From: a bacterium | GTDB lineage: Bacteria; Joyebacterota; Joyebacteria; Joyebacterales; Joyebacteraceae | DNA: 64,000 bases | Assembly (NCBI GenBank): GCA_025774935.1 | Contig: JALGZK010000009.1 | Location: forward strand, 1 to 64,000 | Direction: 5' to 3' | Shown here: in pieces, positions 1-58,794 of the stretch | Layout of the letters: each line of letters begins with the position of its first letter | Numbering within the stretch: the stretch's first letter is position 1 | Program-made: the position numbers and the translations under genes | The notes under the pieces: generated by a model | Seen by the model: the letters and a program-made list of their open reading frames with translations, nothing else | Told to the model about the DNA's origin: nothing | Databases searched by the model: none

Positions 1-531
1 GAGCCGGACCTCACCCACGCCGACTGGGAGTTCGTCCACCCGTCGGACGACAACGACAACCCCGACGTCCCGAACCTCCGGCACTGCGCGGGTTCCGACG
101 TCGACATCGCGCTCGCGAACGGGGGGGACGGCATCCTCATCGCCACCGGGGACGACACGACGGCCGCGATCGACTGCGACACGGTCGTCGACGGCGTGAA
201 CTGGGCCGGCGTGTCCGACCCGGTCCCCATCACCTGGACCTCGTGCGAGGATCCTGCGTTCGCCGCGGGTGTCCCGCAGGGGAACTCCCTCGGGAGGTGC
301 CCCGGCGGGATCGACGGGAACGTGTCGAGCGCTGAGGACTGGTTCATGACGATCCCCTCGCCGGGAGCGCCCAACATGCCGTCCTGGCCATCCGACTGCT
401 CGGTCGGCGTCACGGAAGAGCGGGCGAGCTGGGGGCTCATCAAGGCCATCTACCGCCCCGGCGCCCTCGCGGCCGTGGGAACGCCCGGGGTCCTGGGCGC
501 GTCCGGAGGGGACTCCCGCCCGCGCCGTTGA
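1..531 (+). CDS. Secreted lamin-tail-domain protein, C-terminal part (5' end outside window)
   Basis: The reading frame is open from the first base, so the gene starts upstream of the window; 176 codons are visible. The visible part ends a lamin-tail (LTD) domain: a 'GGDGILIATGDD' strand, a Cys pair around 'TSCEDPAFAAG', 'GNSLGRCPGG' and the characteristic 'DWFMTIPSPGAPN' end. LTD domains occur in extracellular bacterial proteins, so secretion is inferred; the signal peptide is not visible. Close to the C-terminus lies 'ASWGLIKAIYR', the same motif that forms the extreme C-terminus of three other secreted proteins in this window, but here 24 further residues rich in Gly, Ala and Pro follow before the stop. 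Function unknown. Confidence 0.8.
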   Translation, partial: EPDLTHADWEFVHPSDDNDNPDVPNLRHCAGSDVDIALANGGDGILIATGDDTTAAIDCDTVVDGVNWAGVSDPVPITWTSCEDPAFAAGVPQGNSLGRCPGGIDGNVSSAEDWFMTIPSPGAPNMPSWPSDCSVGVTEERASWGLIKAIYRPGALAAVGTPGVLGASGGDSRPRR

Positions 532-11569: not shown

Positions 11570-11989
11570 ATGCGCGGGAACAAGGGTTTCACCCTCGTCG
11601 AGCTGATGATCGTAGTCATCATCGTCGGCATCCTTGCTGCTGTGGCCATCCCGATGTACCAGGGCGCGACTGAGCGCGCCAAGGCGTCGGAGGCCGTCGC
11701 GGCTCTCGGCACTATCCGTGGTGCGATGCGTGTGTACTACGCCGAGCACGGCACGTACGTCAACGCTAGCTTTACGGACGGCGCTCAGGTCACGAACGGC
11801 AGTGTTCTGGATGTGAGTGACAGCGATCTGATGGGCCGATACTTCAGCTCTGCATGCTACACGTTCAACGGCGCTCCTACGGCTGCCGCATTCAGCATTG
11901 AGTGCGACGGCGCTCTTAGCGCTGCTCCGAACGCGAGCGAGGTGGCGAGCATCGTCCGGACGATCAACCAGGACGGCGACATCTCGTAG
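11570..11989 (+). CDS. pilA: Type IV prepilin (candidate major pilin)
   Basis: 139 residues with a class III leader: MRGNKG is followed by FTLVELMIVVIIVGILAAVAIP, with cleavage after Gly6, N-methylated Phe and the invariant Glu5. The globular part has 'YYAEHGTYVNASFTDGAQVT' and two cysteines ('SACYTF', 'IECDG') likely to form the D-loop disulfide. ATG 11570 has AGGAGG ten bases upstream; a TTG at 11543 is an alternative. It is first of three tandem prepilins and is followed by a strong hairpin, consistent with higher expression than downstream genes. Four paralogs with the same layout lie in this window. Confidence 0.9.
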   Translation: MRGNKGFTLVELMIVVIIVGILAAVAIPMYQGATERAKASEAVAALGTIRGAMRVYYAEHGTYVNASFTDGAQVTNGSVLDVSDSDLMGRYFSSACYTFNGAPTAAAFSIECDGALSAAPNASEVASIVRTINQDGDIS

Positions 11990-51843: not shown

Positions 51844-52467
51844 CTACCGGAAGAGGCCCTTGATCGTGCTCCAGGTCATGCTCTCGATCGAGGTCTGCGG
51901 GCTGCCATAGATCCTGGCCATCCAGCGGAAGTAGGAGCCGGGTCCGTCCCAGGTCACGCAGTCAAAGGACCAGTCGTGAGGGATGATGACTCCGGATGCA
52001 GCCGTCGCCATGTCGGCGCCCACCACCACCTGGTACTTGATGTAGTAGAGCGTTCCCTCCGTGACGTAGACGGCCGGAACCAGGTTCTCCCCCTGCCAAC
52101 CGTGTGTCGCCGACTCCGTATACGACACGGTCGCGAGGACCGGCCCGGTCGGCGCGCCGCTGCCATCGTCTTCGAGCAGCGAGACGGCCACGGAACCGCC
52201 GACTCCGCCAGCGTAGAACTCGATCCTCTCGAAGGCAAAGCTCGTACTGGGAACGTACGCAAACCCGAAACACTCGGCCGCGTATTGCCCCCACGGTTCG
52301 TAGGGTTGGCCGTCGTTCCAACCCTCGATGTACTCCTCTCTGGGCGCATCTGTGGGTATTGCCTCCCCTCCCGGAGACGCGGGCTCGGCACCACCCACTG
52401 TCAGTGCCAGAGCCAAGCCAGGCACCACGATGAGGAGAACGGCCAGGAAAAGAGCGAGGCTTCTCAT
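51844..52467 (-). CDS. Secreted protein ending in the WSTIKGLFR motif
   Basis: 207 residues. Signal peptide 'RSLALFLAVLLIVVPGLALALT', then a beta-rich domain: 'WNDGQPYEPWGQYAAECFGFAYVPSTSFAFERIEFYAGG', 'VAVSLLEDDGSGAPTGPVLATVSY', 'LYYIKYQVVVGADMATAASGVIIPHDW'. This resembles the choice-of-anchor/jelly-roll modules of secreted proteins describing device-like 'LEDDGSGAPTG' repeats, so carbohydrate or surface binding is possible. The chain ends 'ESMTWSTIKGLFR', the motif shared by three other proteins here. ATG 52467 has GGAGG upstream. Confidence 0.82.
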   Translation of the reverse strand: MRSLALFLAVLLIVVPGLALALTVGGAEPASPGGEAIPTDAPREEYIEGWNDGQPYEPWGQYAAECFGFAYVPSTSFAFERIEFYAGGVGGSVAVSLLEDDGSGAPTGPVLATVSYTESATHGWQGENLVPAVYVTEGTLYYIKYQVVVGADMATAASGVIIPHDWSFDCVTWDGPGSYFRWMARIYGSPQTSIESMTWSTIKGLFR

Positions 52468-52985
52468 GTGCCCTCCGTCCTGCAGTTGGATCCCATGGCA
52501 CGAATTCCCTGCCACGCCAGCGCGCAGCACCGCTCGAGTTCGGCGGGCACAAGCTCGGCTGTCACCGACAGGCACAGAGACAGCACCCGCTGGTGCGCCG
52601 AGTATACCACAGACGAGCCGGCGTGTCGAGAATGACCCGCCGGCAGCCTCTCCGGCCTGTCGTGCGGCTCACTCGCCCAGTGGCGCTCAGGTGATGGCGT
52701 CCCAATCACGCTCGGAGCGAGAGGAAGCTCAACATCCTCTGCCTGCCGAGGGGACAGAACTCGGGAGTCAAGCCGCAGTGGCTTGCTTGCGGATCGTCTC
52801 CGCATCCAGGAGCCGCTCCTCAGTGTGGTTCCAGCTGAGGTGCTGAGGGACTGTCACCTCACAAGGTGTCCGCAGATATGGGCTCCTTGTGGGGTCCTAT
52901 CAGCGGACACCGCACCTCGAATCCCACCCACCTCACGTGCGTCCAAACAGCAGGCACGTAGGCTGGTCTGGGCAGGGAGGGGACT
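52468..52985. other. Intergenic region between divergent 51844 and msrBA genes
   Basis: No convincing gene or strong promoter. The stretch near 52768 (TCAAGCCGCAG) repeats TCAAGCCGCAG at 51570, upstream of repeat D, but no tRNA end follows. Confidence 0.4.
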
Positions 52986-54084: not shown

Positions 54085-54519
54085 TCAGCGGTAGAGTTCC
54101 TTGATGCGTCCCCAGGACACCGCCTCGTCCGGCGCCCTGGTGTCGATTCCGACGCCAACGGAACCCACCATGCCGAAGAGAGAGCCGTGCGGCTGGCAGA
54201 AGTAGTCGTAGACCCCTCCAGGAACCGGATTCGCGATGAGGAATGCAGCGTCGAACACCACATCGAAGGTGGTTCCCGCGAGATCTGGGGGGCCAGAGGA
54301 GAAGTAGGGTGTGGGCGATCCCGGAACGCCCGAGACGACGTTGTGCCCACCGCTGTCCCATACCCAGTGTACCGTGTCACCCACAGCTACAGTGACGTCC
54401 GCGGGCGAGAACGTGAACAGTCCGCCGGGGCCAACAGTGACGTTATGCGTCACGGCGGTCGCCGAGAAGGCAGTGAACACAAGAGCCGCCGCAACCAGAG
54501 CTACACTGGTCATCTTCAT
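54085..54519 (-). CDS. Plastocyanin-like cupredoxin ending in the WGRIKELYR motif
   Basis: 144 residues. Signal peptide to about residue 23, then one cupredoxin domain. Copper ligands can be read directly: His59 ('GGHNVVSG'), Cys108 and His111 ('YFCQPHGSLFGM'), and Met117. An electron carrier of the cell envelope is the likely role. The last residues 'EAVSWGRIKELYR' follow a short linker ('GVGIDTRAPD') after the domain end, which shows that the motif is an added tail. AAGGAAGG precedes ATG 54519. Confidence 0.88.
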   Translation of the reverse strand: MKMTSVALVAAALVFTAFSATAVTHNVTVGPGGLFTFSPADVTVAVGDTVHWVWDSGGHNVVSGVPGSPTPYFSSGPPDLAGTTFDVVFDAAFLIANPVPGGVYDYFCQPHGSLFGMVGSVGVGIDTRAPDEAVSWGRIKELYR

Positions 54520-54923
54520 TGCTGGACCTTCCTTTGCAGGAGGCTCACGACCGGTTGACCGGAGCATGCAACTCCCCCCTCACCAGCTGTTTAGATGACG
54601 TTTCCTCCCTCGGGTTGCCTGCCGAGGGTCGGGTGGGACCCGTGGGGTCCCTTCTGTGTGATGTGGCCGTCCAGCATGGCCGCAGATCACGTGGCGGCTC
54701 GTGATTCCGAGATGTCCTGGCTCGAGAGGAGAGCGCTGCGACGCCACCTTCGGGGGAGACTGCCCAGCTCTGCGAGCCACCTCCAGCACGGGCGCCATAC
54801 AGAGGACGGCAGGCCTCCCGTGTGAAGTTGACCCACCCTCTCTGATGCGGTAGCTTCGGGGTGCCGTCCCCGCAGTCTCACCTCCGTGAGCACGTCGTCC
54901 GCGATTCGCAGAGAGGCAATCAC
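54520..54923. other. Divergent intergenic region upstream of the 510-residue secreted protein
   Basis: No gene. A hairpin GGGACCC/GGGTCCC at 54635-54651 and the promoter at 54828-54856 are the only signals seen. Confidence 0.45.
54828..54856 (+). promoter_or_regulatory. Promoter for the 54924 gene
   Basis: TTGACC (54828-54833), 17-base spacer, TAGCTT (54851-54856), 68 bases before the ATG. Confidence 0.5.
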
Positions 54924-57364: not shown

Positions 57365-58099
57365 TCACCTATAGAGCGCCTTGATCGTTCCCCAGGTGGT
57401 CCCCTCGACGATCGATGCGCTCCAGCACACCTGGAGCGTCGCGTCCCTTCCTGTTGTCGTCCCTACCTGGTCTTGCAGGACACTCCCCAACGCACCCACG
57501 AACTCGATCTGGTACGACAGGTCGAAGAAGCTGTCGACCTGGAAGTCGGTTCCTGGTCCCCCCAGGCGCGTGAGAGTGGTCGTTCCGGACGCCGGGAGGC
57601 TGAGGTCGGAGCCCGTACGGAACTGGAGCAGATCGAAGTCAGGGTCGTTGAGTATCTCTCCCTCAAGCTCCACGAGCTCACCCGCGTACGGCTGCACGGC
57701 ATCGTTCAGGACCCGCGGCCCCCACTCTGCGACACCGGACACCGGCATGTGGAGCATGCGACTGAATCCACCCAGGTTACCGGTCCCGGACATCTCCAGC
57801 AGGAGCATCGCGTCGAAGGTCGACTGCGTCCCGCCGAGTCCGCCTCCGATGATCTCGAGCACGTTGCCCACATCGAACAGAGTCGCGTCGATCTCGATCG
57901 TGGCGTTGGTGAGCCCGTTCACGATCTCCAGATCGCCTCGGTACCCGTCGAGGCAGTTCGGCGGCATCGTCACCGTCCCGGCGCCGTTATCAGGAAGCTG
58001 GCACGGGCAAGGCTCCTGTGCGACCGCTGAGTCGATGGCCCCCGCGAAGGCCACGACGGCCATGGCAGCGGTCGTTGCGAGTCTGGCAGCTGTTCTCAT
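57365..58099 (-). CDS. Secreted protein ending in the WGTIKALYR motif
   Basis: 244 residues. Signal peptide 'ARLATTAAMAVVAFAGAIDSAVAQ', then 'EPCPCQLPDNGAGTVTMPPNCLDGYRGDLEIVNGL' with three cysteines near the mature N-terminus. The chain is beta-rich and low in charge; I recognise no family. The segment 'GPRVLNDAVQPYAGELVELEGEILNDPDFDLLQFRTGSD' is well ordered. It ends 'EGTTWGTIKALYR'. AGGAGG precedes ATG 58099. It faces the AhpD-like gene across a terminator. Confidence 0.8.
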   Translation of the reverse strand: MRTAARLATTAAMAVVAFAGAIDSAVAQEPCPCQLPDNGAGTVTMPPNCLDGYRGDLEIVNGLTNATIEIDATLFDVGNVLEIIGGGLGGTQSTFDAMLLLEMSGTGNLGGFSRMLHMPVSGVAEWGPRVLNDAVQPYAGELVELEGEILNDPDFDLLQFRTGSDLSLPASGTTTLTRLGGPGTDFQVDSFFDLSYQIEFVGALGSVLQDQVGTTTGRDATLQVCWSASIVEGTTWGTIKALYR

Positions 58100-58794
58100 T
58101 GCGCTCCTCCTTGCTGTTCGCGCTCACCGAGATAGTCTCTGGCCAGCCCCGGGCTGCCGCTCTGGTGGTCAAGGCCTGCCCCGACCGGGACCAGGCACGC
58201 GGCCATGTACTTCCTACGTATGCTACGTGGATATCACCTTCTGATGAACGACGACGACAACGGGTTCTTCCTCAGTCTGGCCTCTCGTGGAAAGAGAACG
58301 AGCTTGACGCCGCCCCCGCTTCCCTGCATACTCGCAACTGGCGCGCACCCGCGCGTCACCCATCACGGTCGTCAGTCTGTTCAGGTCACCGACTCTGAAC
58401 GAGGATCGTGCGAGAGCTCCCGTGTCCGACTGACGTCCGCCGGGGCCGTCCACCTCATCTCTGCTCCGGTTTGCCTTCCCTATCCACATAGGCTTCGAAG
58501 GGCCAGGCAGCAGTCCGTCGAACGACGGGATTGCCCACCTTCGGGCAGGATTACAGACGTCCTCGGGCCCGCCCCAAGGGTCTTTAGGGCCATTCGGAAC
58601 GGTTGGCTGGGCGAGGCATCTATAGAGGAGAAGGACGAGCCAGGGACGCCGGCCGATCTTGACACCCTCGGTCGAGGCGATTCGCGATACTGCGCGTCAT
58701 CCAGCCCCAGCGAGTTCGACGGCACGTGTGAGTCGCCAACCTGCCCAGCAACCGTATTCACTCAGGACCGCTCGTTCACATCGAGGCCAAGTGA
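58100..58794. other. Intergenic region upstream of the kinase cluster
   Basis: No convincing gene: the long frames here overlap the kinase start in another frame. A TTGACA at 58658 lacks a -10 at the usual distance. AGGGACGCC at 58642-58650 may be a further tRNA-end relic but has no T-loop before it. The last 25 bases, including GTTCACATCGAGG, recur before the third kinase. Confidence 0.45.

Follow-up and report, generated by a model that had tools for sequence, protein, structure and literature searches.

A short C-terminal WGxIK tag on proteins of a Joyebacterota genome: a candidate sorting signal kept inside a run-on protein

Introduction

PEP-CTERM proteins are numerous in each genome that has them, belong to mixed domain families, and share a short signature near the C terminus. 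The same holds for MYXO-CTERM (PMC11980579) and GlyGly-CTERM (PMC3237569), as far as the available text of these two sources goes. In all three, a transmembrane (TM) helix and a basic cluster lie behind the signature. Other C-terminal signals are read by the type IX secretion system (T9SS). Those treated in the available parts of the literature are folded domains of at least 40 residues (PMC11969387), and the Ig-like architecture of the signal domain is called essential in the accessible portion of PMC11285876. Shortened T9SS C-terminal domains (CTDs) are described from Prevotella intermedia in the sections of PMC11969387 available; they measure 40-51 residues and contain motifs B, D, and E (GxY, basic end). 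Hbp35 is also cited there: for GFP to be secreted in P. gingivalis, its last 22 residues were absolutely required, and no other part of it was. Type B CTDs are 150-235 residues long, have dedicated PorP/SprF shuttles, and are often encoded beside the shuttle gene; a single T9SS can thereby serve several signal classes, each via a different shuttle (PMC12618676, available sections).

The tag that we describe here, a linear stretch of 9-16 residues, resembles each of these systems in part. With the PEP-, MYXO-, and GlyGly-CTERM groups it shares the many carriers per genome, the mixed domains, and the short signature near the C terminus, but 58 of its 65 carriers in the genome studied end at the R of the motif and four end one residue later, leaving no helix behind it. 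Like the type A CTD of the T9SS (PF18962 / TIGR04183), it is C-terminal, its carriers begin in a signal-peptide-like manner and have mixed domains, and it is found in genomes with SprA and PorV; moreover, related proteins of the same genome bear a C-terminal FlgD_ig domain instead of the tag. However, the type A signal folds into an Ig-like domain tens of residues long, and none of the 65 tag proteins matched PF18962 (Por_Secre_tail) or FlgD_ig at E <= 0.01. The P. intermedia CTDs are shortened signals too, but none of their motifs, as given in the available text, was seen in the tag. Compared with the type B domains the tag is far shorter, and a pairing with shuttle genes is not established.

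Results

The first protein of the window

The window, i.e., the whole stretch of 64,000 nucleotides that was analyzed, comprises bases 1-64000 of its contig, and for this reason its first open reading frame (ORF) is open at the 5' end (Table 1). The first-pass annotation had located a motif inside this protein, 24 residues before its end, and this was borne out: the tag, with its core WGLIKAIYR at 430-456, is followed by 24 amino acids and then by TGA. Of the span 451-531 assigned to this feature, the end is correct and the start falls within the motif, on the codons for YR. The name "lamin-tail protein" given to it is weak. The fragment in the window has no match to LTD (PF00932), and an ortholog from the same genus (L066) reaches 22.4 bits (E 1.7e-4, residues 31-116 of 290) against a Pfam cut-off of 34.3. 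The counterpart of this region would be missing almost entirely here, falling upstream of the first base of the contig. A signal-peptide-like start is present in the ortholog rows, the copy in the window being without its N terminus. Structure prediction of the LTD ortholog (17 sequences) gave a mean pLDDT of 33.7, too poor for any use of the fold.

Six-frame translation of the window gave three matches to the strict nine-residue motif. The two besides that of the first protein are both on the minus strand, with the stop codon adjoining the motif. A fourth tag protein, also on the minus strand, has the variant tail TWSTIKGLFR directly before its stop and is invisible to a search for the strict WG.

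Table 1. Coordinates of the run-on protein, its parts, and the other tag proteins of the window
Feature	Position	Strand	Remark
C-terminal part of the first protein, 176 aa and stop; orthologs with signal-peptide-like start and weak LTD match	1..531	+	5' end missing
ASWGLIKAIYR C-terminal tag	424..456	+	W, G, and K invariant in 18 aligned rows
24-residue run-on extension PGALAAVGTPGVLGASGGDSRPRR	457..528	+	No amino-acid constraint seen
TGA stop	529..531	+	Common to sister genome G002
Plastocyanin-like protein, signal-peptide-like start, ending SWGRIKELYR-stop	54085..54579, tag 54088-54114	-	Stop-to-stop frame; stop adjoins tag
Protein with signal-peptide-like start, ending TTWGTIKALYR-stop	57365..58123, tag 57368-57394	-	Stop-to-stop frame; stop adjoins tag
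Protein of 274 aa with variant tag, ending SIESMTWSTIKGLFR-stop	51844..52668, tag 51847-51873	-	Stop-to-stop frame

The tag across the genome

The DNA pattern for WGxIK..[YF]R has 65 matches in the 3.24-Mb genome and its reversed control has none, which excludes a chance origin of the tag. Each of the 65 strict matches was inspected, and all lie in open frames. The tag is genome-wide and sited at or near the protein C terminus: besides the 58 frames with the stop immediately after the nine residues, four have one more residue (E, D, P, or R) and three have 8, 9, and 24 more, the first protein of the window being the most extended of all. None of these three longest extensions is a hydrophobic helix. 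Those of L020 (+9, QRARRRPPG) and L043 (+8, NGNRRDRR), on other contigs, are both strongly basic, in contrast to the often acidic short extensions seen in the LTD orthologs (see below). When the second residue was allowed to be G, A, S, R, T, or C and the fourth I, M, L, or F, with a stop required, there were 70 matches against none for the control, i.e., the 58 strict ones and 12 variants, four of which were inspected in context. The fuller consensus over the 65 tags is [ST]PVExx[ST]WGxIK[AGS][LM]YR, with column counts of 43 for P, 45 for V, 46 for E, 60 for T/S, 62 for A/G/S, 54 for L/M, and 56 for Y; W, G, I, K, and R are imposed by the search pattern and hence have no independent counts.

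No family models the tail in the Pfam and NCBIfam scans of the carriers (for NCBIfam, 25 of 27 families listed). Literature queries with motif strings returned no title on a bacterial tag, and the terms "type IX," "T9SS," and "C-terminal" are absent from the main text of a paper on the phylum Candidatus Effluviviacota of seeps (PMC11323493).

Proteins that carry the tag

Most carriers look Sec-exported. Among the 60 tag ORFs with a known 5' stop, 54 have a signal-peptide-like start, as judged with a simple hydropathy rule and not with a trained predictor. With starts restricted to the first 60 codons, the figures were 45 of 60 tag ORFs versus 13 of 46 gene-like ORFs of the window without the tag, these controls having been picked by codon GC and including genuine exported proteins. 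A first control, with 5 of 44, was discarded since it was drawn from the longest frames, which surely include antisense ones; the 13 of 46 is the fairer comparison. Six of the 60 tag ORFs had no such start, and two of the 65 carriers are short frames; our best explanation leaves both unaccounted for.

The mean column identity of the 65 carriers is 8%, some of them being paralogs, and their consensus is essentially the tail alone. Pfam domains among them include right-handed beta-helices (11), MAM-like domains (5), CBM_20, PKD, LTD, and copper-binding domains. The NCBIfam families choice-of-anchor J, choice-of-anchor V, and MYXO-CTERM-anchored MXAN_6652 were matched by two carriers each (E <= 0.1). 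Choice-of-anchor domains occur with many different anchors.

Related proteins in the same genome end in different ways. The beta-helix search gave 46 matches, from which 30 loci were returned and 24 inspected: nine end in the strict tag, three in a variant (WSAIKAMYR, WSMLKAMYR, and WGALKAGFR), two in a C-terminal FlgD_ig domain, and three in neither, while the ends of seven lie beyond the fetched stretch. The seven LTD matches comprise one protein that ends in the tag, one match with neither ending, three that run beyond the fetched stretch, and two within a single protein whose FlgD_ig end scores 26.6 of 27 bits, i.e., just below the Pfam cut-off. The Ig-like C-terminal domain is likely a T9SS-type signal, but in the three scanned proteins with such an end Pfam calls FlgD_ig and not Por_Secre_tail, which counts against reading of the tag by the T9SS.

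Spread among genomes

The tag is present in all 20 genomes of the phylum (one family), with 14-65 copies each and 766 in total for the pattern without a stop. Across these genomes, the reversed control gave one match, in G012 (strict pattern without stop). A stop-like codon, searched as TRR and thereby admitting TGG, directly follows 653 of the 766; the other 113, or at least 15% of the phylum tags, have a non-stop codon next. When the stop was required, 46 of 290 sampled genomes had the tag, namely, the 20 of the phylum and 26 of the 270 others (20 families, 1-19 copies each), and no control match was among those listed. One locus was inspected in 15 of the 26 outside genomes, and all proved to be ORF ends, two of them cut or fragmentary. 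A match in G026, where the frame stops within the pattern, was due to chance and was dropped.

In seven genomes of five other families, the strict tag is carried by just one protein, a small one that ends in WGSIKA[ML]FR directly before the stop (L091/L098, L092/L105, L099, L100, L101, L102, and L106). It has a signal-peptide-like start, six of the seven copies are linked by BLASTP, and it looks fibronectin-type by eye, no Pfam family being over the cut-off in the two copies tested. Among the clients of the tag, this protein may be the ancestral or the core one. Its solitary status would also suit a tag that acts after export as a functional peptide, e.g., a membrane-surface or docking helix or a periplasmic protease site, and not as a sorting signal; the W, I, [LM], and [YF] together with K and R could give a small amphipathic helix. 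We consider such a role unlikely, given that a single genome has the tag at or near the C terminus of 65 proteins with diverse domains and that it alternates with the Ig-like C-terminal domain in related proteins.

Relation to type IX secretion

SprA_N was detected in 87 of the 290 genomes, including 17 of the 20 in the phylum, and the three without it are 57, 73, and 78% complete. It was found in 42 of the 46 tag-plus-stop genomes versus 45 of the 244 others. Outside the phylum, SprA_N is present in 25 of the 26 tag genomes versus 45 of the 244 without the tag (Fisher, 1.1e-15), and 45 of the 70 SprA genomes there lack the strict tag. PF18962 matches occur in all 46 tag genomes versus 76 of the 244 others. 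However, among genomes with at least 15 scored PF18962 hits, SprA does not predict the tag (p = 0.36), and because the association vanishes there, shared ancestry can explain it. Secretin (PF00263), tried as a control family, is nearly universal (260 of 290 genomes and, by eye, all 46 tag genomes) and was therefore uninformative. In the genome studied, the SprA (1963 residues of frame) has a match to 6h3i, a SprA chain of solved structure, at 2.4e-30, and the search for PorV, which covered this genome, gave three PorV-family proteins, two of them over the cut-off. One PorV-family gene (contig C27, 9168-9734) lies ca. 1.9 kb from a tag protein (11615-11640), a proximity that may be coincidental at a density of 65 tags per 3.2 Mb. 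Por_Secre_tail matches were found in all 20 genomes of the phylum, so the T9SS there has tag-free cargo.

A receptor was sought in 13-19 kb around the single-carrier proteins, using a crude ORF finder, which at L128 missed the tag protein. Over 8 loci from 6 families, no gene other than the small tag protein itself recurred in more than two families. Two genome pairs, each within one family, had several neighborhood genes in common. Between families, just two relations were seen: one frame of the L129/L130 neighborhoods was similar to one in L132 (E 4e-20 and 3e-20, in the better direction), and L131 and L132 shared a match at E 9e-27 with a weaker neighbor at 8e-4.

That the T9SS reads the tag is our best guess, and one that is not separable here from shared ancestry. 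The different shuttles described for type B signals and the 22 residues of Hbp35 are precedents for it, whereas the size of the folded T9SS signals and their Ig-like architecture, called essential in PMC11285876, count against it. A possible, if doubtful, alternative is that the tag serves a dedicated machine other than the T9SS, such as a processing or surface-attachment enzyme, for which it would be a sorting or anchoring signal, the T9SS being merely co-inherited. The choice-of-anchor domains among the carriers would suit such a machine, as would the occurrence of Por_Secre_tail matches alongside the tag in every genome of the phylum and the loss of significance of SprA co-occurrence in genomes rich in that family. 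Yet the eight neighborhoods contain no candidate for it, all but one of the tag genomes outside the phylum have SprA, and no hydrophobic helix stands behind the tag as it does in sortase-like systems.

Evolution of the run-on extension

Orthologs of the first protein were found in 17 of the 20 genomes of the phylum, its own included. We inspected 19 ortholog rows, again counting that of the window; one is a 62-residue fragment. W-G-x-[IL]-K is kept in all 19, and the ninth residue of the motif is R, except for K in two rows and G in one. Four rows stop at the tag, the case that the first-pass annotation had proposed to look for among orthologs, and 15 extend beyond it, by 1 residue (one row), 2 (two), 4 (five), 5 (two), 8 (three), 24 (the window), or 28 (G002, same genus). 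The short extensions are often P plus acidic residues and are alike within clades. In this family some extension is the rule, whereas phylum-wide at least 15% of the tags are followed by something other than a stop. An extension in the absence of the motif core, the finding named beforehand as a refutation, occurs in none of the 19 rows. The proposal that the tag tolerates downstream residues is supported; the rows speak neither for nor against a need to remove those residues, the long extension not being conserved in sequence.

We placed 18 rows in a tree rooted only at the midpoint; in it, the long form (24 or 28 residues) constitutes a single clade (support 100/96), and its neighbors are two lineages ending at the tag. 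With this rooting, the tree agrees with the stop loss that the first-pass annotation had proposed as one of two readings. Over the 152 codons of the core, the window and G002 differ at 8, 4, and 37 first, second, and third codon positions, respectively, the pattern of a gene under constraint, whereas over the 24 codons of the extension the figures are 7, 10, and 6, with 15 nonsynonymous and 3 synonymous codon changes. Differing bases make up 32% of the extension versus 11% of the core, and the spacer has 8 differences over 68 aligned bases; a 12-base in-frame indel separates the two extensions. The spacer itself (532-608, before acpS), closer to G002 than the extension is, includes a conserved stretch, GCGGTAGAATAC, perhaps a promoter. 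Judging from these substitutions, the long extension is drifting without amino-acid constraint; by the tree, it has a single origin in the genome studied and its sister.

The extension could instead be functional, e.g., be cut off to expose the tag or alter the fate of the protein. The 15 extended rows could mean a functional role in this family, which counts against our best explanation, and the clade-wise similarity of the short, often P-plus-acidic extensions goes in the same direction. For the long form, we find it distinctly improbable: it lacks the third-position excess, it changes three times faster than the core and more than the noncoding spacer, and it has the indel just mentioned. 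An assembly or sequencing error that removed the stop from this metagenome-assembled genome is scarcely credible. The gene does lie at a contig end in a 40-contig assembly; however, error is disfavored because a second genome of the genus, G002, shares this run-on frame and its TGA.

Discussion

We give a probability of about 0.5 to the reading in which the tag is a short linear sorting signal on Sec-exported proteins, probably read by the T9SS, with the run-on tolerated after loss of the stop. A role as a sorting signal is the most likely one for the tag. The carrier would be exported by Sec, after which a receptor in the envelope would bind the C-terminal tag and route the protein across or onto the outer membrane. 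The likeliest receptor would be a shuttle or translocon of the T9SS (PorV-like or SprA). The W-G-x-I-K core would be the recognition element, and the free carboxylate after R would be usual and dispensable. In the common ancestor of the genome studied and its sister, the stop after the tag would have been lost, and translation would proceed until it meets another in-frame TGA; the 24-28 residues gained in this way appear to be tolerated. The extended protein is presumably still sorted. Since its tag is followed by 24 unconstrained residues, the reader of the tag seems not to need an extreme C terminus. As a tentative generalization, to be held at less than even odds, the T9SS of several uncultured phyla might accept 9-16 residues of linear peptide as a complete signal, without any folded C-terminal domain and even where the peptide is not at the extreme C terminus.

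The run-on protein provides a natural experiment on position dependence, with W, G, and K retained while the residues downstream vary freely. If the T9SS reads the tag, the minimal T9SS signal would be far smaller than the domains described in the available text of the papers cited. If the tag is a sorting signal, some 70 proteins of this genome would gain a predicted surface or extracellular location, and the same would apply to carriers elsewhere: those of the phylum's remaining 19 genomes and, going by the pattern, those of the 26 genomes outside it.
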